Positions 753 through 42,670 of a stretch of 64,000 bases of DNA are shown piece after piece; position 1 is the first letter of the stretch, and the number at the start of each line of letters is the position of its first letter. This DNA is from Collinsella provencensis (lineage in GTDB: Bacteria; Actinomycetota; Coriobacteriia; Coriobacteriales; Coriobacteriaceae), in contig NZ_LT904908.1 in NCBI RefSeq assembly GCF_900199705.1, forward strand, positions 798,530 to 862,529, read 5' to 3'. Made by a program: the position numbers and the translations under genes. The notes below the pieces were generated by a model, which was not told where the DNA came from, did no database searches, and was given only the letters and a program-made list of their open reading frames with translations.

Positions 753-1265
753 GGTGGTTATAGTTTTGCCGTCTCGTCACTCCAGTTGCACCCAGTTTTC
801 GGCGGCATCTCGAAGTGAGTGCCGCTGAATGACGCGACGTCGCGTTTCATCGGCTTCGGGGACAAAAGCTGGGACAACTTCAAAAACCATTTTCAAACTC
901 AGAGTATTGAGTTTTTATTTTTGTCCCAAGGGGCACGGAGAGCCGCCTTTGGAGGCTCGATATCGCCGAAAAACGCCCGTTTTGAAACTCAACCGCCTTT
1001 GAGCCTGCAAACCACCAGCTTCAACAGTAAGTGAGTCGACGCGGGTGGCTTACGAGCCGTTCACAAAACCGCAGGCCACAGGTCTTTGTCAACGATAAGC
1101 AAAGTGAATAGTCTCAGGTGGCTTGCCCATGAGTTGGCGTAAGCCTGTTTAGCAAAAGGCTAATCGGACACGACAGGCCGCCCGCATGGCGACGGCGTTT
1201 CCCGTGCGGGCACAAACAGCCCTGCGTGCCCTGTCGCGCGATATCCCAATGCGACGTTCAGAACC

Positions 1266-32629: not shown

Positions 32630-32997
32630 GGGGGCAACTGGTTTCGACATGATAGTTCTGAGAGAGGAAGCAGGCCGTGGTCTCCTCGCCACGTTAAACA
32701 GGGGTACCGTCAAAATGAATTGACAAGAATTCTTCTTTTGAGCCCCAGCTGGCTCTCGCTGCTTAAATAATTAGCGGCGCGTCAACCCGGTGATTTCCCC
32801 GACACCGGCGCGACGTCATTTCAGGGGAATGCGCTTTGGCACGTAATCGGTATGGTCAAAGCTAAGATTGAACCGATTGGGACGCAGCGAGCGTGTCGCT
32901 TCGCGCAATGCGTCCGAGATTAAATAAGCGACTGAGCTTGGAGATGCCGATCAGGGAGCTGTTATGGACCGGAGTTCGATTCTCCGTGCCTCCACCA
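32630..32997 (+). ncRNA. ssrA: tmRNA
   Basis: The 5' GGGGGCA pairs with the 3' TGCCTCC before A-CCA, giving the tRNA-like acceptor stem, and GGAGTTCGATTCTCC near the end is the T arm. The GGGGCAACTGGTTTCGAC start is the classical tmRNA 5' sequence. The internal tag frame reads ...DKNSSFEPQLALAA-stop, ending in the ALAA degron for ClpXP; the exact resume codon is uncertain. About 368 nt. It rescues stalled ribosomes. A mobilisable element begins shortly downstream, and ssrA 3' ends are frequent insertion sites. Confidence 0.97.
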
Positions 32998-33056
32998 AAA
33001 GAGGAAGCGTCGAACTCTTCTTCATCAAGAATGAGTTCGCGCTTGTGTATAGATTT

Positions 33057-33082
33057 GGGGATGCCCTTTAGGGCGTCCCCTT
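33057..33082 (+). terminator. Terminator downstream of ssrA
   Basis: GGGGATGCCC pairs with GGGCGTCCCC around TTTA and is followed by TTTTCG. It lies 60 bases after the tmRNA CCA end and is its likely terminator. Confidence 0.9.
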
Positions 33083-33123
33083 TTCGTTTTCCTGACGTCG
33101 TATTTTGCGTTTTAAGACGTTTT

Positions 33124-33160
33124 AAGCCCGAAGAGGTACTCGTCTACCCTTCGGGCTTTT
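33124..33160 (+). terminator. Second hairpin terminator
   Basis: AAGCCCGAAG (33124-33133) pairs with CTTCGGGCTT (33149-33158) followed by TTCTG. It is either a back-up terminator for ssrA or the outer terminator of a lost gene at the edge of the mobilisable element. Confidence 0.75.
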
Positions 33161-33285
33161 CTGTGGCTTAAAACGGCTTTTAGGGCATTCTGAAGAGGAT
33201 GTGGGAGCACAACCTGCATCTCGCTTCGCTCGATGCGCTTTATGGACTGGATACGTGGGAAAGATGATGTATTCAAGAGATTGTT

Positions 33286-33625
33286 GTTCCATTTTGTTCC
33301 AAAAAAGTTGGAACAGACATTTCCCGCAATTCCTCGGTGCCCCAGCCCGATTTGAAAAATCCTGTTCCATTTCTCAAAACAAAATTGGAACAGACGAAAC
33401 CCGCATATTCTCGGGGCATTTCTTCGATTGTTCCATTTGTTCCACTTTTTTATAAACCTTTATTTACGCGAGAAGAAAAAAGAGAAATCCGTATATATAA
33501 AAAAGTTTGTTGAAAAAAACCGGAACAATTGGAACAACGGCGTTTCGGGTCGAGAACCATCGGGAAATCAGCGTTCCATTTTGCCTGAAAAAACTGGAAC
33601 AAAAGTGGAACAAAACTGGAACATT
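33286..33625. repeat. Iteron-like cluster of GGAACA / TGTTCC repeats
   Basis: About 13 copies of a seven-base motif close to TGGAACA (or TGTTCCA on the other strand) occur in 340 bp, several as facing pairs (GTTCC...TTGTTCC, GGAACAATTGGAACAA) and three in tandem at the right end. The DNA is very AT-rich (33440-33520). No protein gene is supported. Such an array next to a primase-helicase gene suggests a replication origin; a regulator-binding array is the alternative. Confidence 0.65.
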
Positions 33626-33744
33626 TACCTGAGAGCACCCCTCTTCCCCCTGTACCGCGATTTTTTTGCATACTGTTTCCGCTCATTTATGGCGGGAAAC
33701 AGCGTCGGACAAGCCCCTGACCTGCAATTATATGACGTTTGCTA

Positions 33745-33773
33745 TTGCTTTCCGTCATTTCATGTTGTATAAT
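33745..33773 (+). promoter_or_regulatory. Strong sigma-70-type promoter for the structured RNA
   Basis: TTGCTT (33745-33750), a 17-base spacer and TATAAT (33768-33773). A transcript would begin near 33780, at the left edge of the structured RNA. Confidence 0.75.
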
Positions 33774-33779
33774 ATCCAT

Positions 33780-34022
33780 ATATTCGCGACATGATTGCCG
33801 ATGGATAGCGGCCGGGATATACCGACGTGAGCCTATCCGAGACCGAGCCTTAGGCTCGGGAGGAAGCCGATGAGGGTCCGCCCTCGAAACTGCGTCGGTC
33901 TGACGAGCCGATGCGGGAGGCAACAGCGTCTATCCGTCCAAATAGGACGGCAATCGCACGAACGTGACGAGCGGCGAATCAGATTTCAGCTTGATTGCTG
34001 GATTCTGGTTCGCCGCTTTTTT
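33780..34022 (+). ncRNA. Candidate structured RNA / leader of the mobilisable element
   Basis: A region of about 245 nt with a consensus promoter in front and a terminator at its end. It contains many potential stems: GGATAG/CTATCC (about 33798 and 33832), CCGAGCC-TTA-GGCTCGG, GAGGG-TCCG-CCCTC, and a long-range TTGCC/GGCAA that would close the whole fold (33790s with 33910s). GCCGATG occurs three times. No protein is encoded. I do not recognise the RNA. It may be a riboswitch-like leader for the xis-rep operon, a replication-control RNA, or an independent ncRNA. Confidence 0.6.
33971..34022 (+). terminator. Terminator at the end of the structured leader
   Basis: GCGGCGAATCAGA (33971-33983) pairs with TCTGGTTCGCCGC (34004-34016), 13 bp with one G-U pair, then six T residues. 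It lies 33 bases before the excisionase gene, so it either ends the RNA or works as an attenuator. Confidence 0.9.
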
Positions 34023-34054
34023 GCGTTTATAGGCAGGAAAAAGGAGGTTGCTTT

Positions 34055-34333
34055 ATGGCAAATGCAAAACAGAAGAAGGGGTTCACGAAGAAGATTCTCG
34101 GCGGGAGCGAGCTGACGATGGAGGAATACGCGGCCTACATCACGGCTCTGAAGGCGAAGCCGTTCCTGACGAGTGCCGAGGCGTCGACCCTGTTCGAAAT
34201 AGGAATCGGGCGCGTGCGTTCGCTGATGAAGGCCGATGACGCGGACTTCGTAGTGATGACCGACACGATTCGAAGTCGCCGTATTCACCGCGAGACGTTC
34301 GAGAAATATCTGGTGTCTCACGGGATTCATTAA
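34055..34333 (+). CDS. Excisionase-like DNA-binding protein
   Basis: A 92-residue basic protein: a Lys-rich N-terminus, then FLTSAEASTLFEIGIGRVRSLMKADDADFVVMTDTIRSRRIHRETFEKYL. This is the winged-helix Tn916-Xis/MerR-like pattern (LTxxEAxxxFxIGxxrIrxLxk...fv...g..ri.r..fe.yl). The ATG at 34055 follows AAAAAGGAGG. It probably assists excision by the serine recombinase or controls the operon that starts here. Confidence 0.75.
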   Translation: MANAKQKKGFTKKILGGSELTMEEYAAYITALKAKPFLTSAEASTLFEIGIGRVRSLMKADDADFVVMTDTIRSRRIHRETFEKYLVSHGIH

Positions 34334-34345
34334 GGAGGTGAGGTT

Positions 34346-36157
34346 ATGAGGCAAAAAGAAAACCGCCCCGGCGCTGGCGACGCTTACGGGACGGTACCAT
34401 TTAATTGTATTAATGATACCACAGATATGAGCGAATTTCAAGACTTAACATACAACGGGCTGCTCAAGGCGGTCACGGACGATTATCTGGACGGCCTCGA
34501 CGAGGACGCCGACCTGCCGTTCGAGAGCATCGAGGCGGAGCTTCTTCAGGCGACCAACAACGCAATCGAGGAATACAACCTCGGTCCCCGCGACCCGAAC
34601 GCCCCTATGGGAGCGCCCATCAAGGACGCGTACCCGAACGCGAAAGCCCCTGCTGACCGCGTACGGAAACTGAAGGCCCTGACGCCTTGGCAGGTGGCGA
34701 GCGTGATAATTCGCCTGTACCACGCGGTCGGAATCCGCCTGAACGGTCAGGAGGGTGACGGAAATTTCGATGTGGGGGTCTACCAATCCCACGGGGAACG
34801 GCGAGGGCTGTACGACACCCGCACCGAGACGGTCCGGAGGTTGATTACGGCTCTCCACCCGGGAATCAGCGATGTGGACATGCGCAACACCGAGAACAAG
34901 CTGCGCGTCCTCGTGCCGAAGGTGGAGCCTTGCAAAGACAAGGCACTCGTTCCCGTGAACAACGGAATCTTCGACTACGAGAACAAGATTCTGCTGGATT
35001 TCGACCCGAAGTACGTGTTCACCAGCAAGTCGAACGTGGATTTCGTCCCGAACGCCCGGAATCCGGTCATCCACAACGACCAAGACGGAACGGATTGGGA
35101 CGTGGTCTCGTGGATGGAGGAGCTTTCCGACGACCCCGAGGTTGTCAAGGTTCTCTGGGAGGTGCTGGGGGCTTCCCTGCGTCCGAACATGCCGTGGAAC
35201 AAATCCGTCTGGCTGTACTCCACTCAGGGCAACAACGGAAAGGGCACGTTCTGCGCCCTCGTCCGGAACCTGCTCGGGAAAGGCTCTTGGGCCTCGATTC
35301 CCCTGAAGGATTTCGGGCAGGATTTCATGCTTGAGGAGCTTACCCGCGTACAGGCGATTATCACGGACGAGAACGACGTCGGAACGTATATCGACAAGGC
35401 GGCCACGCTCAAGTCGGTCATCACGGGAGACCCGTTCCTGCTCAACCGCAAGTACAAGGCTCCAATGCCGTGCCTTTTCCGCGGGCTGATGATTCAATGC
35501 GTGAACGAGATTCCGAAGCTCAAGGACAAGTCGGAATCCATGTACAGGCGATTGCTCGTGATTCCGTTCGAGAAGCGATTCGAGGGCTGCGAGCGGAAAT
35601 ACATCAAGGACGATTATCTGGGACGAAAGGATGTCCTCGAATACGTCCTGTTCCACACCCTGTACGAGATGGATTTCGACGAGTTCAGCGTTCCCGAAGC
35701 ATCCGAGAAGTCGCTGGACGTGTTCCGAGTCGACAACGACCCTCTTCGCCAGTTCGCGGACGAGGTGTTCGACCAAGCCGCATGGGACCTGCTCCCTTGC
35801 AAGTTTCTATACGATTTGTACCGCTACTGGTTCCAGACGAACGTCCCTCAGGGAAAGATGCTGAGCCGGAACTCCTTCTATTCCTCGCTCGAACTGATTG
35901 CACCGGAATACGGATGGCAGTTACAGGACAAGGTCCGCTCGGCGAACCGGATGGATGTCCCCGAGATGCTGATTCTCGAATATCAGGTGCAGGAGTGGAT
36001 GAATCACGACTACCGGGGAAACGACAAGATGCGTCTGGCGCAGCCCGACGTGAAGGACAGCTATCGAGGCTATGTGCGGAACAAGGTGGGGTCGATTCCG
36101 GCGTACATGGTGTCCGGAGAAACGACCGCAAGTGAAGAGATAGATTCAAATAGATAA
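34346..36157 (+). CDS. Phage/plasmid primase-helicase (D5/P4 type, SF3)
   Basis: A 603-residue protein. The C-terminal half is an SF3 helicase: Walker A STQGNNGKGTF (about residues 291-301), Walker B AIITDEND, and motif C LMIQCVNEIPKLKDKSESMYRRLLVIPF with the asparagine and arginine finger. A D5_N-like domain precedes it (YVFTSKSNVDFVPNARNP). Clear primase catalytic acids were not identified in the N-terminal 180 residues. It would open and replicate the excised circle, with the upstream repeats as likely origin. GGAGG precedes the ATG. Confidence 0.88.
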   Translation: MRQKENRPGAGDAYGTVPFNCINDTTDMSEFQDLTYNGLLKAVTDDYLDGLDEDADLPFESIEAELLQATNNAIEEYNLGPRDPNAPMGAPIKDAYPNAKAPADRVRKLKALTPWQVASVIIRLYHAVGIRLNGQEGDGNFDVGVYQSHGERRGLYDTRTETVRRLITALHPGISDVDMRNTENKLRVLVPKVEPCKDKALVPVNNGIFDYENKILLDFDPKYVFTSKSNVDFVPNARNPVIHNDQDGTDWDVVSWMEELSDDPEVVKVLWEVLGASLRPNMPWNKSVWLYSTQGNNGKGTFCALVRNLLGKGSWASIPLKDFGQDFMLEELTRVQAIITDENDVGTYIDKAATLKSVITGDPFLLNRKYKAPMPCLFRGLMIQCVNEIPKLKDKSESMYRRLLVIPFEKRFEGCERKYIKDDYLGRKDVLEYVLFHTLYEMDFDEFSVPEASEKSLDVFRVDNDPLRQFADEVFDQAAWDLLPCKFLYDLYRYWFQTNVPQGKMLSRNSFYSSLELIAPEYGWQLQDKVRSANRMDVPEMLILEYQVQEWMNHDYRGNDKMRLAQPDVKDSYRGYVRNKVGSIPAYMVSGETTASEEIDSNR

Positions 36158-36170
36158 GGAGTGATTGATT

Positions 36171-36512
36171 ATGGCTATAAAGAGATTCGATGACATAGAC
36201 AAGAAGGCGCGTGAGCTTGAGGCTCAGGCGAAGAAGTTGCGCCGCGAGAAGCAGGCCGCGAAGACCAAGGCGTACGCAGATGCCCTCGTGGCGGTCTTCC
36301 CCGAAGTGAAGGAAATGGGTTCCGCCGAAGAGGTGCTCGCGTTCGTCAAGACGCTGCGCAGGGACGCCGGACATGGAAACGGCGGAAATCCTTCCGATGG
36401 GTTTCAGAACGCAGTCGTGCGCGGACCTGCGGGCGACGCCGATTCTTCGGACGGCGGCCGCGGTTCTCTCGGCGTCGAGGGCTTCAATCCCGAGCGCCGT
36501 CCCTTCGATTAA
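36171..36512 (+). CDS. Small coiled-coil protein of the mobilisation region
   Basis: A 113-residue protein: residues 1-65 are helical and charged (DDIDKKARELEAQAKKLRREKQAAKTKAYADALVAVFPEVKEM), and the last 45 are Gly/Asp/Asn-rich and disordered. Short coiled-coil proteins with this opening often lie between replication and Mob genes in small mobilisable elements. The ATG follows AAGGAGTGATTG. Function unknown; an auxiliary relaxosome role is inference. Confidence 0.6.
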   Translation: MAIKRFDDIDKKARELEAQAKKLRREKQAAKTKAYADALVAVFPEVKEMGSAEEVLAFVKTLRRDAGHGNGGNPSDGFQNAVVRGPAGDADSSDGGRGSLGVEGFNPERRPFD

Positions 36513-36792
36513 AACGCGCCGGAGGTTCGGACATGGGGAGTCGTCCCCGTGTCCGACATTCGGTCGCGTGGTTCTGTCGGACAGAACATGTTGAGTCGGA
36601 GGGGACAGATTCGGGGGTTCGAAGGGGACGGCAAAGCCGCCCCCTCGCAAGCTGACCATGGCGGAAAAATGCGATATTCGCATTTTGTACGTACATGGTC
36701 AATGCTTGCTCCCTTCCCCGTTTCGCAGATTGCAGCAAAGTGCGACGAGAAATGAGCATCGCATTTGGATTGCGAATAAGGAGGTGTTTTGC
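36513..36792. other. Hairpin-rich region, candidate origin of transfer
   Basis: Between the rep and mob genes are a long hairpin (TCGGACATGGGGA with TCCCCGTGTCCGA, about 36527-36556), GTTCTGTCGGACAGAAC (about 36571), a GGGGACGGC/GCCGCCCC stem (about 36620-36650) and palindromic AAAATGCGATATTCGCATTTT-like sequence near 36664-36684. AAAGTGCG (36737-36744) resembles the TAAGTGCG or TAAATGCG nick regions of MOBP-type plasmids. Position directly before mobC fits an oriT. The nick site is a guess. Confidence 0.5.
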
Positions 36793-37236
36793 ATGGCAAA
36801 AGAAGTTGAGAAGAGAAGCGGCAAGGCGACCCGCCAGCACTACAAGAAGGACCGTCGCGAGACTGTTATTCAGGTGCGCATGAACGCCGAGGAGCTTGCC
36901 CTTTTGGATGGGAAGAGAGGCGGACGCACGCGCTCGAATTATCTGCGTGGCGCGCTGTACGGTTCCGCCGGTTCCCACACGGAGCACGAGGTCGTTGCGG
37001 ACACTCCGCAGCTCGACCGGATGCTGATGGAATTGAACCGAATCGGCGTGAACATCAACCAGATTGCACGGGCCTTCAACGCCCGCGTGAAAGGGATGGG
37101 CATGCTTGAGGAAATCAAGATGGAACCGGACAAGAAGGCGTTCGAGAGCCTGCGGGAATCCATCGACGGATTGTCGGACGAGGTCAAGGGGCTTCGAGCC
37201 GATTTGCATGGCGGAATCACGGGAGGTGATGTCTGA
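36793..37236 (+). CDS. mobC: MobC-like relaxosome accessory protein
   Basis: A 147-residue protein with an N-terminal ribbon-helix-helix region (ETVIQVRMNAEELALLDGKRGGRTRSNYLRGALYG) and the hallmark LMELNRIGVNINQIARAFNARV of MobC/BacMobC proteins, then a C-terminal coiled coil. It helps the relaxase bind or open oriT. The ATG at 36793 follows AAGGAGG. Its stop overlaps the relaxase start (TGATG). Confidence 0.88.
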   Translation: MAKEVEKRSGKATRQHYKKDRRETVIQVRMNAEELALLDGKRGGRTRSNYLRGALYGSAGSHTEHEVVADTPQLDRMLMELNRIGVNINQIARAFNARVKGMGMLEEIKMEPDKKAFESLRESIDGLSDEVKGLRADLHGGITGGDV

Positions 37237-38750
37237 TGTCGACGACGTATGTGCAGGCATTGCCCGACGTCCGGGGCCGCATGTCCTACACCGAGTTCGG
37301 AGAGGGAAAGCGCAGACGCGACCATCTGCGAAACGGGACGGACCGCATCGCCGCCCAGATGGGCGACATGCCCTCCCGAGGTGAGTTCATCGCGTACTGC
37401 AACGGGCTTCATGCCGTCCATCCGAACATGGTCAACGAGGGTTACGAGCTTCGCGTCTCATGGGCGCTCGACGAGTTGAATCCGGGCAATCCCGACGATG
37501 TGCAGAGGGGCATGGAGCACGCCTACCTGCTCTGCCATGAACTCGCCCCCGACTCCCCGTGTTGGGTGACCATGCACGTGGACGGCGAGGGCGGATGCGT
37601 CCACGCCCACGCGACAATCGCGAACCACGATTGCCGCACCGGGCAGGTCATCAACAAGGACGACACGAGCCTGTTCGCCCCGCGCGTGCAGGCGGTGAAC
37701 GACGAGCTGAGCCGCGAGTGGGGCCTGTCCGTGATTGGAGCGGACAAGGACAAGTCGACGTGGGCGGAGAAACGGGACTCGTTCGAGCACGATTCCTTCG
37801 ACCGCCATCTCGGCGATGCGGTGGCAAAAGCAAGGGACGACGCCAGCGATATTGATGATTTCAAGCAGCGTCTTGCGTTCGCCGGAGTGACCCTCAATGA
37901 GACATCGAAAGTCGACAAGAAGACGGGCGAGAAGTCCGTCGGATGGTCTTACAGGATGCGGGACGAATGGGGTCCGAAGCGTAGGACCCGGAAGCGCCGT
38001 GCCTCCAACCTCGCAGACGACCTGACGAAGGAAGGCGTCGAGCGGTTCTTCGAGGAGAAGCAGGGACAGCAGGCCCGCGAGGAACTGAAGACAGCGCCGG
38101 CCCCGAATCAGGATTCCCAGATGGTCGGCATGGAGGATACGCAGCAGGATTCCCCTGCCCAGCATGATTTTGACATGTACGAACCGAGCGAGTCCGACGT
38201 GAGGGACATGGCCTCCGATTTGAAGAACGTGTACGCCCGCCGCAGGAAGAGCGAGGGCATGCCTATCGCCGGGGAGCAGTACGAGGCGCTCGCGAATGCA
38301 GAGAACGACCCGGAAGACGCCCTCGCCCAGCTCCGCGCCGATGTGGAACGCGCCCGCAGGGAGTTCCGCGATTCCAGGGAGGCACGAGACGCCCTGAAGG
38401 GAGCCTGCCCGAGCCTCGCGATGGGATTCGGGCTGTACACGCTGGCGAGCAGGACCGGGACCGACCCCGTCTCCCGCATGATGTCGGACATGATGGCCCG
38501 GATGTTCCGCATGATGATGCTCCAGTTCATGGAGGACCAGCGCCGCAGGATGCAGGAGGATGCCGAGCGTCGTCTCTACGAATCCCGAGGCAACATGTGG
38601 GACGCCGAGAAGCGCCTGAAGGCCGCCGAGGAGGCTCTGGACAACGAGGCCGCCCGCACCGTCAAGCATCGCGGCGTCACGCCGAAGATGCAGCAGACGG
38701 CCGAGGCGACGGAGCGCGTGCGCGACGAGGACAAGTACCTCGGGGAGTAA
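37236..38750 (+). CDS. Relaxase (MOBP-like, MobA/VirD2 superfamily)
   Basis: A 504-residue relaxase. The N-terminal third carries the metal-binding histidine motif GGCVHAHATIANHDCRTGQV (about residues 120-138) and a tyrosine-rich start (YVQALPDVRGRMSYTEFG); the residues between resemble MobA/MobL folds. The C-terminal 250 residues are charged, helical and contain a Met-rich hydrophobic stretch (MMSDMMARMFRMMMLQF, about 414-430), unusual for a relaxase. It nicks oriT and pilots the strand to the recipient with the help of a conjugative element in trans. Confidence 0.85.
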   Translation: MSTTYVQALPDVRGRMSYTEFGEGKRRRDHLRNGTDRIAAQMGDMPSRGEFIAYCNGLHAVHPNMVNEGYELRVSWALDELNPGNPDDVQRGMEHAYLLCHELAPDSPCWVTMHVDGEGGCVHAHATIANHDCRTGQVINKDDTSLFAPRVQAVNDELSREWGLSVIGADKDKSTWAEKRDSFEHDSFDRHLGDAVAKARDDASDIDDFKQRLAFAGVTLNETSKVDKKTGEKSVGWSYRMRDEWGPKRRTRKRRASNLADDLTKEGVERFFEEKQGQQAREELKTAPAPNQDSQMVGMEDTQQDSPAQHDFDMYEPSESDVRDMASDLKNVYARRRKSEGMPIAGEQYEALANAENDPEDALAQLRADVERARREFRDSREARDALKGACPSLAMGFGLYTLASRTGTDPVSRMMSDMMARMFRMMMLQFMEDQRRRMQEDAERRLYESRGNMWDAEKRLKAAEEALDNEAARTVKHRGVTPKMQQTAEATERVRDEDKYLGE

Positions 38751-38784
38751 AAAAATGGCGGCTCCCTTGCGGGAACCGTCATTC

Positions 38785-39063
38785 TCAGCGAATCTCGGGG
38801 GCGGGCACGCAGTCCCAGCCTGTACCGAAGTGGGTGATTCCCCAGACGTACAGGTCGAGTTCCTCGTCATGGAACACCGGCTCGTCCGTGTGCTCCATCA
38901 GGAAGTCGGGGTAGCTGATGATGTACCACTGGAATATCTCGTCCCATGGTGCGAAATCCCCGCTCACGAATTCCAGCGGACGATGCGCCATCTCGTTGGC
39001 GAGGACCATCCCGCCGACCGTCTTGGCCAAATCCGCATAGGTCTCGATGCCGTAGCCGTTCAT
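38785..39063 (-). CDS. Small acidic/aromatic protein of the mobilisable element
   Basis: A 92-residue protein (MNGYGIETYADLAKTVGGMV...) on the opposite strand to its neighbours. It is rich in Trp, Tyr, Phe, Asp and Glu and has no membrane segment or known motif. The ATG at 39063 follows AAGGGAG, and an upstream in-frame extension is rejected. Its 3' end faces the relaxase gene. Function unknown. Confidence 0.55.
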   Translation of the reverse strand: MNGYGIETYADLAKTVGGMVLANEMAHRPLEFVSGDFAPWDEIFQWYIISYPDFLMEHTDEPVFHDEELDLYVWGITHFGTGWDCVPAPEIR

Positions 39064-39399
39064 CTCTCGTCTCCCTTTCTTTCGGGCCTTCTCCTTCACG
39101 CGCCGACCCGATGCCGAAGGCATATCGACGGTCGAGAGCGCGGGTGGGCTTGAGATGGGCTTGGAAAAGACCTTTCAAGGGTCTCTCCCCGAAAGAGGCG
39201 GAAACGTCGAAAAATCGACTTCGGCTCGTCTATGGGACGATTCCCGAAAATCGTTCCGAAAGGGGTCTAGGGATGATGGAACGGTGGGCTTCAGAAAGCC
39301 CCTCGGAGGGTCTCAGGCGTCTTCGCCTATGCCATGAGTCGTATCGCGATAGTTTGGCGGGCATCCGCCGTACCGCCTGTGGCGGAGAATTGAAAAAAA
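39064..39399. other. Hairpin-dense noncoding region
   Basis: No convincing gene. At least six small stems follow each other: CCTTTCAAGG, CCGAAAGAGG-type, CGTCGAAAAATCGACTTCGG, GGGACGATTCCC, GGGCTTCAGAAAGCCC, GGCGTCTTCGCC, then GGCGGGCATCCGCC and CCGCCTGTGGCGG. The density suggests a structured RNA or a recombination/transfer site rather than spacer. Direction and ends are unknown. Confidence 0.5.
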
Positions 39400-39443
39400 A
39401 AATACGGCTATGCCGTTCCCCCGTGAGGGGTCTGGCATAGCCG
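39400..39443 (-). terminator. Terminator of the lipoprotein gene
   Basis: On the minus strand GGCTATGCC pairs with GGCATAGCC, with CCCC/GGGG pairing inside, followed by a long T-run. It lies 20 to 60 bases past the lipoprotein stop. Confidence 0.92.
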
Positions 39444-39461
39444 TGGTATGGACAGTTGTGA

Positions 39462-40580
39462 TTAACGGCGGGCACCGCAGTCGCAGTATTCGTAGTCGAC
39501 ATAGGTTTCGTTGTGACCATGGTCTTCCTGATGGGAACCGACCTGAACCTGTTTTTCCTCGTAGATGGTTTCCGTACGGTAATTACCGATATAACCAGCT
39601 TTAATAAGCTCCTTAGCGTGAGCCTTTGCGTCGTTGATGTTACTTGCGACATATCCGTCTTCAGCGAAGATGAAGTTTGTTCCTACAGCGACCTTCTGGG
39701 TTTCATAGTCGGGAACCGTCACCATGTTGGACACCCACTTCTGTGCGGTGTGCTGTTTCCACGAATGCTGGTGAGCAGGTTTGCTCGGCTTGTCGGAACC
39801 GCCAGAGTTTCCGGTGTTGCTGGAAGAGCCGGAGTTGGAACCGCTGTTTCCAGAGTTTCCAGAGTTGGAATTTCCAGAGTTGGAGCTGGAAGAGTTGGCG
39901 TTTCCGTCGGAAGGCTTGTCAGCAGGCTTGCTGGTAGTGTCGGCAGGTTCGCTGTCGACATTGACTTCCTCGTCGGCTTTGGAAGCGTCTTCCTTCGTCT
40001 CGTCAGAGGCGTTCGGGTTGGCGTTCACATTGCTATCGAGCTTGTCGAGGATAGCCTTTCCGTTGTCACCCTTGAGGGTGGAGTCGCCGTTCTCAACGGC
40101 GGTCTTCGTGTCGGTTACGATTGCCTTGAGCATATCGTCCGTCACCTTGTCTGCGGAGATGAAGGTCATCTGGCAGTCGACAGTGACTTCGTCCTGTTCG
40201 TCGGAGATTGCGACTTCTGTCGCATCGCCGGTGTCGAATAGCTCGTAGGCTGAGCCGTCCTTATTGACAGGGCTGATGACATCGATGTCGTAGCGTCCCT
40301 TGTCAACTTCTACTTCGGATGTGCCCTTGTTCCCGTCCTTATCAGCCTTCACGGCGTGATAGAAGTCAACGGAAGCGTTGTCCTCATCAAGCCCCTTGAT
40401 GTGGACGATGGCAGGCGTGGAATTCTCGTCCCAGCCCTTGTCCGCCGTGATGGTCAATGTGATTCGATGGCCCGGCGCTTCTTCCCCCGTTTTAGCGGTT
40501 CCGCATGCGGCCAGTGATAAAGCCATGGCGAGGGACGCCGTCACGGCAAGCAGGCGCTTGACGGTCGGTGTTAGAGTCAT
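39462..40580 (-). CDS. Surface lipoprotein of the mobilisable element
   Basis: A 372-residue protein with a lipoprotein signal peptide (lipobox LAAC, cysteine at residue 26). The domain after it (about 35-150) is strand-rich; a disordered Asp/Glu/Ala region (about 185-215) and a Ser/Gly/Asn linker (about 225-265) follow. The C-terminal 100 residues contain HQHSWKQHTAQ, repeated ETQKV/ETIYEEKQV and a final CDCGARR, a His/Cys-bearing pattern seen at the ends of some Gram-positive surface proteins. It is the only clear cargo gene. Entry exclusion, adhesion or host interaction are possible; none is shown. Confidence 0.75.
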   Translation of the reverse strand: MTLTPTVKRLLAVTASLAMALSLAACGTAKTGEEAPGHRITLTITADKGWDENSTPAIVHIKGLDEDNASVDFYHAVKADKDGNKGTSEVEVDKGRYDIDVISPVNKDGSAYELFDTGDATEVAISDEQDEVTVDCQMTFISADKVTDDMLKAIVTDTKTAVENGDSTLKGDNGKAILDKLDSNVNANPNASDETKEDASKADEEVNVDSEPADTTSKPADKPSDGNANSSSSNSGNSNSGNSGNSGSNSGSSSNTGNSGGSDKPSKPAHQHSWKQHTAQKWVSNMVTVPDYETQKVAVGTNFIFAEDGYVASNINDAKAHAKELIKAGYIGNYRTETIYEEKQVQVGSHQEDHGHNETYVDYEYCDCGARR

Positions 40581-40670
40581 ATGAAAGAACCTCCTTTTAT
40601 GTGTAAGCTGCCACTCTCACTTTTGGTGCGGCAGGCCGCACCTCATTGTCAGAGCAAAATCCAACATATT

Positions 40671-40707
40671 ATTATATAATTATATATAAAATCTGCACGT
40701 AAATCAA
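40671..40707 (-). promoter_or_regulatory. Lipoprotein promoter with AT palindrome operator
   Basis: On the minus strand TTGATT (40702-40707 in plus coordinates), a 17-base spacer and TATAAT (40679-40684) lie 100 bases upstream of the lipoprotein start. ATTATATAATTATATA overlaps the -10. The same palindrome covers the promoter at 40762-40798. Confidence 0.7.
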
Positions 40708-40761
40708 GGGATTTCCCGGTCGGCGCACATTATCACGCTGTCCGGTGCCTCCCGCCGGAGA

Positions 40762-40798
40762 TTGACACTCTTGCGTTGCAATTATATAATTATATAAA
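40762..40798 (+). promoter_or_regulatory. Consensus promoter of the RHH-recombinase operon with AT operator
   Basis: TTGACA (40762-40767), a 17-base spacer and TATAAT (40785-40790) are perfect consensus. ATTATATAATTATATA (40781-40796) covers the -10, an identical 16-mer to that at 40671-40686. A DNA-binding protein on this palindrome would block both divergent promoters; the RHH protein encoded next is the obvious candidate. Confidence 0.8.
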
Positions 40799-40821
40799 GT
40801 TTACCTAGGGAGGGAGTACGG

Positions 40822-41001
40822 ATGGATGGGACCAAGAGTGGAGCCGCCCCCGAGAGGACGATTCTCTCGCTTTCCATAACGGTGGAGGACAAGAGAAAGC
40901 TGAAGATTATGGCAGCAGAGAGGAACACGACCATCGCGGCAATCATCCACGGGTGGGTGAAGGAGCATTGTTCCGACAAGTCGGAAGAAAGCACAAATTG
41001 A
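40822..41001 (+). CDS. Small ribbon-helix-helix regulator
   Basis: A 59-residue protein, MDGTKSGAAPERTILSLSIT then VEDKRKLKIMAAERNTTIAA and IIHGWVKEHCSDK. ILSLSITVEDKRKLKIMAAERNTTIAAIIHGWV is the Arc/CopG fold: a beta strand, a first helix and a second helix after the TTIAA turn. GGGAGGGAG precedes the ATG at 40822. It is 80 bases before the recombinase and 25 bases after the operator-promoter, so it probably represses its own operon and the lipoprotein gene. Confidence 0.78.
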   Translation: MDGTKSGAAPERTILSLSITVEDKRKLKIMAAERNTTIAAIIHGWVKEHCSDKSEESTN

Positions 41002-41080
41002 GCATTTGCGGACTAATCAAAAAGCATTTAATCAATTGAGATTGAAATAGAAAGTGTCTAAACGAATGGAGGTGATTCAT

Positions 41081-42670
41081 TTGGCGAGAAAGAAATCAAA
41101 GCTCAACGACAACAACCTCGCCATCGCGTACTATCGCTACTCCTCCCACTCGCAGAACGAGGCGAGCATCGAACAGCAGCGCGAGCTTGCCCACGAATGG
41201 GCGGACGCGCACGGGCTGAAAATCGTCCGAGAGTACGAGGACGCGGCCATATCCGGCACGAAGGAAGACCGTCCGGGATTCCAGCTGATGTTGTCGGAGG
41301 TCGCAAAAATCCGTCCGAACACCCTCATCGCGTGGAAGACCGACCGTCTGGGTCGCGATAAGTACGTGCTGGCGATGGCGAAGAAGACGATTCGCGACGC
41401 GGGGTGCGAGATACACCTGCTGGCGGAGAACATCCCGACGGACACCGCCGAGGGAATCCTCATCGAGGGGCTGATGGAGGCTCTGGCGGAGTATTACAGC
41501 CGGAACCTGTCCGTGCACATCCAACGAGGGATGGACTTCAACGCCGAGCACGCGAACTTCAACGGCCATAAGGTGTTCGGCTTCAAGACGGAGAAGGTGG
41601 ACAAGAAGCGCAAGTACGTCATAGACCCCGATACCGCGCCGTTCGTGCAGTTGATGTTCACGAAGTACGCCGAAGGAGAACCCATGCAGTCCATCTGCGA
41701 CGAGTTCAACGAGGCCGGTCTGCGTACGTCGAGGGGTAACCCCTTCGGTGTGAAGACGATGCACAGGATGCTCAAGAACCGCGCGTACATCGGCGAGTAC
41801 AGGCACGGCGAGTTCGTCGTTCCCGGCGGGATGCCCGCTCTGGTCGACGGGGAGACGTTCGACAGGGCGCAGAAGCGCCTCGCCGAGAACAAGCGCAAGG
41901 GTTCCCAGAGGGCGCGAGGAATGGATGAGGATGGCGCTCCTCGCTACTGGCTGACCGGGAAGCTGTACTGCGGCGAGTGTGGGGAGACGATGCAAGGTGT
42001 CTCGGGCACGAGCAAGACGGGGCGCACGTATTACTACTACTATTGCTCCGCCCAGCGGAAGAAGCTGTGCACGAAGAAGAAGGTCAAGAAGGACTGGATT
42101 GAGGACCTCGTGACCGACGTCCTGAGGTACATCATCGACGACTCGGAGAACCTGATGTCCCTTGCGGTGGACGCCGCCGTGTACTACAAGGAGCATTACA
42201 AGGAGACGGGGTACCTCGAAGGTCTGGAGGCGAAGCGCAAGGAGGTCGAGAAGGGCATCGCGAACCTGATGAAGGCAATCGAGGGCGGTGCGCTCAGCGA
42301 CACCCTCATAGAGCGCCTGAACCAGCTTGAGGCGCAGAAGGCATCCCTGAACGACGCGATACAGGCCGAGAACGTCAAGGTCTCGCTGTGCGAGGACGAG
42401 CACAGCATCAAGGCGTACTTCGAGAAGTTCCTTCACGCGGACTTCGACAACCCGGAGACGCGCGATAAGATATTGGAATATTTCGTCGATAAGATTTATC
42501 TCTACGACGAGAAGCTGGTCGTGACCTCGTGGTATTCGGAGGATAAGACTGAAATCACGTGGGATATGCTGAAAGGAGCGGACGGCGACCCTTTTGTTAA
42601 AGGGGAAGCCGCCGAGTTCGACTGCTTCCCCTTAGGCTCCACCATAGGAGAATTAGGCGAACACCTTTAG
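41081..42670 (+). CDS. Large serine recombinase
   Basis: A 529-residue integrase of the large serine family. The resolvase domain has YYRYSSHSQNEASIEQQ (Ser21 nucleophile) and WKTDRLGRDKY (catalytic arginines); the recombinase domain has GFKTEKVDKKRKYVIDPDTAPFVQLMF and GNPFGVKTMHRMLKNRAYIGEYRHGEF; a zinc ribbon follows (CGECGETMQG ... CSAQRKKLC), then a coiled coil (about 350-420). The start is TTG at 41081 with GGAGGTG six bases before; upstream ATGs lack such a site. It would integrate and excise the element at this locus. Confidence 0.93.
   Translation: MARKKSKLNDNNLAIAYYRYSSHSQNEASIEQQRELAHEWADAHGLKIVREYEDAAISGTKEDRPGFQLMLSEVAKIRPNTLIAWKTDRLGRDKYVLAMAKKTIRDAGCEIHLLAENIPTDTAEGILIEGLMEALAEYYSRNLSVHIQRGMDFNAEHANFNGHKVFGFKTEKVDKKRKYVIDPDTAPFVQLMFTKYAEGEPMQSICDEFNEAGLRTSRGNPFGVKTMHRMLKNRAYIGEYRHGEFVVPGGMPALVDGETFDRAQKRLAENKRKGSQRARGMDEDGAPRYWLTGKLYCGECGETMQGVSGTSKTGRTYYYYYCSAQRKKLCTKKKVKKDWIEDLVTDVLRYIIDDSENLMSLAVDAAVYYKEHYKETGYLEGLEAKRKEVEKGIANLMKAIEGGALSDTLIERLNQLEAQKASLNDAIQAENVKVSLCEDEHSIKAYFEKFLHADFDNPETRDKILEYFVDKIYLYDEKLVVTSWYSEDKTEITWDMLKGADGDPFVKGEAAEFDCFPLGSTIGELGEHL

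Follow-up and report, generated by a model that had tools for sequence, protein, structure and literature searches.

We find that a structured RNA of about 240 nt, referred to here as the type A leader, probably acts in cis as a conditional transcription terminator that gates the xis-rep operon of a mobile element integrated in Collinsella provencensis. The element lies in the window, the whole 64,000-nucleotide stretch of DNA that we analyzed. We favor this reading of the sequence because stems of the RNA covary between homologues, because natural cassette swaps link the RNA to xis, and because related elements have, at the same place, leaders that are built alike but unrelated in sequence (types B, C, and D).

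The element spans positions 32986-42646 (about 9.7 kb) and has the 3' end of the tmRNA gene ssrA as its integration site; the ssrA gene next to it is complete. Its att sequence, CTCCACCA, is repeated within the 3' end of a gene for a CcrB/XisF-like serine recombinase (41054-42670), where it forms the right att site. The directly repeated att sequence, the recombinase, the mobilization genes, and an empty integration site visible in a congener (L167) identify the element as an integrative mobilizable element; the MobC and NikA matches lie above the Pfam cut-off, and the relaxase match lies below it. The element includes a likely origin with iterons, the leader RNA, xis, rep, mobC, and a relaxase-like gene. 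The likely replication origin holds 12 copies of an iteron-like TGGAAC/GTTCCA repeat (33286-33622). The xis gene (34055-34333, plus strand) encodes a 92-residue protein of the Tn916-Xis family, and rep (34346-36157, plus strand) encodes a P4-family primase-helicase that matches TIGR01613 (E = 2.5e-56), DUF5906, and D5. A 372-residue open reading frame on the minus strand (39462-40580), which is lipoprotein-like and has a low-complexity Ser/Asn/Gly stretch, is a probable cargo gene of the element. The tmRNA (32630-32997) scores 142 bits against Rfam and was missed by ARAGORN, and an azaaromatic (yjdF) riboswitch at 1557-1656 scores barely over the cut-off for RF01764. The ssrA islands of Dehalococcoides likewise combine integration at the ssrA 3' end with a CcrB-like serine recombinase gene that overlaps att, but their gene content differs, and neither a primase nor a leader RNA is described for them in the passages cited here (PMC3146451).

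Transcription of the leader would start from a TTGCTT-17-TATAAT promoter on the plus strand (33745-33773; -35 at 33745-33750, -10 at 33768-33773), which the initial annotation had already recognized. Divergent homologues have a promoter-like pair in the equivalent position, namely TTGCGT/TTGCTT-17-TATAAT in L004, L026, and L028 and, by eye, the weaker TTGCGT-17-TATGAT in L029 and TTGCAT-18-TATTAT in L030. The RNA itself (33780-34022, plus strand; about 243 nt with its terminator) is close in length to the transcript of about 245 nt that had been proposed. It folds with a z-score of -6.5 with the terminator and -3.4 without it, and in either case none of 200 shuffled sequences matched its folding. 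Five local hairpins, P3 (33803-33838; GGAUAG/CUAUCC with an inner CGG/CCG), P4 (33843-33859), P5 (33872-33885), P6 (33892-33914), and P7 (33934-33950), are closed by two long-range stems. In P1, UCGCG of the 5' strand UUCGCG (33783-33788) pairs with CGUGA (33962-33967 region), and in P2, GAUUGCCG (33793-33800) pairs with CGGCAAUC (33948-33955). The RNA ends in an intrinsic terminator (33969-34022) with a 14-bp stem, one mismatch, a further 6 bp, the loop UUGAUU, and T6; a terminator had thus been correctly predicted, but its stem is longer than the 13 bp given. As had also been stated, it stands directly before the xis-rep operon, with only 33 nt between its end and the xis ATG. This gap holds a ribosome-binding site and no recognizable promoter, so transcription of xis must cross the terminator, whether it comes from the leader promoter or from farther upstream. 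A leader between promoter and terminator, directly 5' of the gene to be controlled, is the layout of an attenuator or riboswitch.

The three GCCGATG copies noted in the initial annotation are present (33797, 33866, and 33907), but they are not one conserved repeated motif. The second belongs to a ribosome-binding site and ATG, and the third forms the 3' arm of P6 and is replaced in L030 through compensatory changes. A hammerhead-like CCGAUGA...GAAAC string seen by eye in the leader was dropped because a stem pairs through its core.

A scan for Rep proteins, together with a covariance-model scan, located three further copies of the type A RNA, each 5' of xis. Those in Massilioclostridium coli (L024) and Longicatena caecimuris (L025) are 97% and 98% identical to the RNA in the window, and the third, in a Ruminiclostridium MAG (L030), is 80% identical; these copies represent only two truly distinct type A lineages. 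L030 is the informative copy, and we compared its structure with that of the window. Among the 48 base pairs of P1-P7, 38 are unchanged, 7 carry double changes, 2 carry one-sided changes to G-U, and 1 is broken. When the same number of substitutions is placed randomly, the mean is 0.63 double changes and 12.5 broken pairs, and 0 of 20000 simulations reached the observed outcome. The double changes fall in P3 (U-A to C-G), P4 (A-U to G-C), P5 (two), P6 (two, along with one one-sided change and a broken pair at its edge), and P7 (U-A to C-G), and the terminator has two more. The junction bases are identical at 46 of 48 positions and the RNA is 80% identical, whereas the adjacent xis retains only 39% protein and 70% DNA identity. 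Covariation in a homologue, of the kind that the initial annotation had proposed to seek, thus supports the local stems P3-P7 and the conclusion, drawn from sequence comparison, that the leader is a structured RNA under selection. The closing long-range stem that had been predicted can be formed; neither P1 nor P2 varies between the window and L030, so that covariation speaks neither for nor against them. The sequence of P2 is unchanged in the window, L025, and L030, and one of its pairs is mismatched in L024.

The RNA matches no known class, as had been suspected. In a search of Rfam 15 (4227 families), the copies in the window, L024, L025, and L030 reach no gathering cut-off, and their sub-threshold matches look chance-like; we also found no description of the RNA in the literature searched. 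A covariance-model search (R1) of about 760 genomes, in which each taxon was sampled (396 genomes of the class, 6 of hosts, and 158, 115, and 87 of three families), returned the four known copies only. Two weak hits of this model, G1496 and G357, appeared chance-like on inspection, and L161 sits in a coding gene. Plasmids and phages contained no DNA similar to the leader, viral contigs contained no conserved stretches of the RNA or only chance 15-mer matches, and none of these three collections contained relatives of Xis.

Related elements have exchanged parts in ways that separate the leader from rep. The window and L025 are 98-99% identical from a palindrome, TTTCCGCTCATTTATGGCGGGAAA, which with the motif CTGACCTGC (33676-33725, plus strand) marks the upstream border of the swapped cassette, to the first codons of rep; their iterons differ, and their rep genes are about 60% identical. 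Conversely, L028 and L030 are mostly 95-100% identical in origin and rep, with 82-86% identity in a few bins of 100 bp; yet the type A RNA of L030 is paired with a xis of the Tn916 type, whereas L028 has a type B RNA with a xis of the HTH_17 type, a type determined on L004, to whose xis that of L028 is nearly identical by eye. The iterons track rep and not the RNA, with TGGAAC/GTTCCA replaced by TTGTGCC in L025 and by GTGTGTC in L028. At the level of sequence, these swaps show that the leader RNA travels with xis rather than with rep or the iterons. Therefore, the RNA appears to be functionally tied to xis or to the input of the operon and not to rep-specific copy control. The origin regions of relatives also repeat CGAGGAAGCCGATGAA-like motifs (L026 5240; L028 5114 and 5192; L029 5312; L030 4970 and 5048), which contain GGAAGCCGATG, a sequence shared with the leader junction J4/5.

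The type B leaders (L004 1035-1226; L026 5533-5720; L028 5530-5717; L029 5551-5737) also start from a promoter at this place and comprise a 5' hairpin domain, which is conserved, and a 3' terminator; their sequence is unrelated to type A. An Rfam scan that covered L004, L026, and L029 gave no match. In type B, an upstream UCACGGG can pair with CCCGUGG of the terminator as a candidate antiterminator, and in L029 the two strands have changed together to UCACAGG/CCUGUGG; the pairing rests on this one double change, and shuffling alone does not place it above chance. The 5' part of type B by itself folds no better than shuffles (z = -0.7). We read the type B RNA, likewise from its sequence, as a cis-acting conditional terminator that gates xis-rep. 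Two further leaders, type C (L023 1128-1441) and type D (L050, reverse complement, about 895-1155, minus strand), are unrelated and also place a promoter and a terminator before the operon. A covariance-model search found no distant homology between type A and types B and C; the L023 terminator has GCGGCGAATC in common with that of the window. Reps that lack the N-terminal extension (L003, L005, and L031-L033; L003 and L027 are loci from a MAG of Collinsella, the genus of the window) have neither the RNA nor xis in front of them. They show that the element family can dispense with the RNA, which counts against our main reading.

The following model of a conditional terminator would account for the type A leader. 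RNA polymerase would start at the promoter at 33745, and the nascent RNA would fold into a multi-helix domain in which P3-P7 are closed by P1 and P2. Most transcripts would end at the terminator, so that excision and replication would stay off in the integrated element. Readthrough, and with it the production of Xis and Rep, would be favored when the folded domain receives a signal, which may be a small molecule, a protein, or translation of a short open reading frame that starts at 33870; Rep would then be limited by a second RNA, antisense to the start of its gene. We infer that termination is regulated, that such a signal exists in one of these forms, and that the integrated element is off by default. 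No alternative antiterminator pairing in type A stood above chance by shuffling; the best, AUUCGC (33782-33787) with GCGAAU of the terminator arm (33974-33979), has 6 bp, is present in all four copies, and would exclude P1.

That the leader is a riboswitch or a protein-sensing leader, as the initial annotation proposed, is plausible. Like riboswitches and other cis-regulatory attenuators, it has a promoter-proximal multi-helix domain, conserved junctions, and a terminator with a ribosome-binding site behind it, and in type B a candidate antiterminator helix would exclude the terminator helix. Unlike the cis-regulatory riboswitches in Rfam, it has no match there and no known ligand, and all its known copies precede xis-rep in mobile elements. 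The sequence comparisons also allow a broader and more tentative proposal, which may hold but on which we would not yet insist: the type A RNA would represent a sensor RNA of a new class, which times excision and replication and can be swapped together with xis, type B and probably types C and D would be unrelated sensors that replace it, and the leaders would be interchangeable input modules.

Translation of the leader itself is a real rival to a sensing domain, if an unlikely one, because the invariant junction J4/5, GGGAGGAAGCCGATG (33858-33872, plus strand), contains a strong Shine-Dalgarno sequence and an ATG at 33870 and because the resulting open reading frame ends at the terminator in L024 and L030. 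Under this explanation, ribosomes would initiate at this ATG, and the position at which they stop or stall would decide whether the terminator forms. All four type A copies have GGAGG, the 6-nt spacing, and the ATG, and about 6% of shuffled leaders contain an equal site; translation would explain the invariance of J4/5. In L024 and L030 the frame has 32 codons and stops within the 3' strand of P1, just 5' of the terminator, where a ribosome would cover the 5' arm of the terminator. However, in the window and L025 the frame runs for 81 codons through the terminator, and neither frame nor peptide is conserved across the four copies. Furthermore, an equivalent ribosome-binding site and ATG are absent from types B, C, and D, and coupling to translation leaves the other invariant junctions unexplained.

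The CI immunity of phage P4 relies on Rho-dependent termination and requires target sites in the leader of the alpha operon that are complementary to the small RNA. This satellite phage silences its replication operon by base pairing of the CI RNA to the leader (PMC4825925), and the element shares with it a structured untranslated leader, premature termination, and an operon for a P4-family primase, here also in an integrated element. By analogy, a terminated or processed leader RNA would pair in trans with the leader of its own operon, force termination, and silence an incoming element. We consider this improbable, since termination is intrinsic here, since complementarity between the terminator arm and the upstream leader does not exceed that in shuffles (a test in which the exact P4 arrangement is not represented), and since a predicted antisense RNA of the element pairs with the leader no better than chance. 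The element also differs from P4 in having no detectable seqA/seqC-like complementarity and in having xis as its first gene. The IsrK RNA of Gifsy-1 is similar in that one promoter of a mobile element gives both a short terminated RNA and a readthrough mRNA, but its sequence is unrelated, and IsrK exerts its effect in trans, on the long form of its own RNA (PMC4825925).

It is considerably less probable still that the leader resembles put or EAR RNAs, in which the folded leader binds RNA polymerase, which then ignores its own and downstream terminators. A promoter-proximal RNA with highly conserved junctions and a terminator immediately behind it would suit such a function, but the leader has no Rfam match whatever.

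The antisense RNA just mentioned lies over the start of rep. Its promoter, TTGAAA-17-TATCAT (34413-34441, minus strand), sits in the 5' end of rep, at the same position in all eight loci of this layout, with 9-10 of 12 promoter matches, and in each of these loci it is followed by a terminator. The predicted RNA is about 50-53 nt long; in the window it has about 53 nt (34354-34406, minus strand), ends in a terminator (CCGUCCCG...CGGGGCGG) with a T-rich tail, and is complementary to rep codons from about 4 to 20. As a small predicted RNA that lies over the beginning of rep and is equipped with a promoter and a terminator, it has the features of a countertranscript. Antisense RNAs that cover the translation start of Rep have similarly been proposed for plasmids of the pC194 type (PMC5703833). 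Such an RNA would account for the unusual KENRP extension at the N terminus of these reps. On sequence grounds, it is the better candidate for copy control.

Copy control by the leader, which the initial annotation had also suggested, is not borne out: variation in the leader does not track that in rep or the iterons, and no antisense promoter facing it is conserved. A leader of the pT181/pIP501 type, in which the terminator before rep forms in response to an antisense RNA that opposes the leader, is accordingly among the two least probable explanations. The element does have a terminator in a long leader 5' of the rep operon and a conserved predicted antisense RNA nearby in the same module. 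Its anatomy largely refutes the analogy, however, as the antisense promoter lies in rep, downstream of both the terminator and xis, and the RNA ends at 34354, over the coding start of rep and not over the leader; in addition, the leader does not follow rep in the swaps. Equally doubtful is a DNA feature only, an origin or a binding region for Xis or Rep whose inverted repeats fold as RNA by chance: the segment directly follows the likely origin, and the 11-base GGAAGCCGATG is common to relatives' origin regions, but a consensus promoter and a U-tract terminator on one strand, which unrelated leaders have as well, the covariation in short hairpins with conserved junctions, and the related reps that occur without the segment all argue against it.

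To our knowledge, how excision and replication are restrained in mobilizable elements of gut Firmicutes and Actinobacteria is mostly unknown. A single element of 9.7 kb offers two separable RNA controls, a terminated leader before xis and a predicted antisense RNA on rep, and natural swaps already assign which part goes with which gene. Should the leader prove to be a sensor, the signal that sets the element off would be its ligand.
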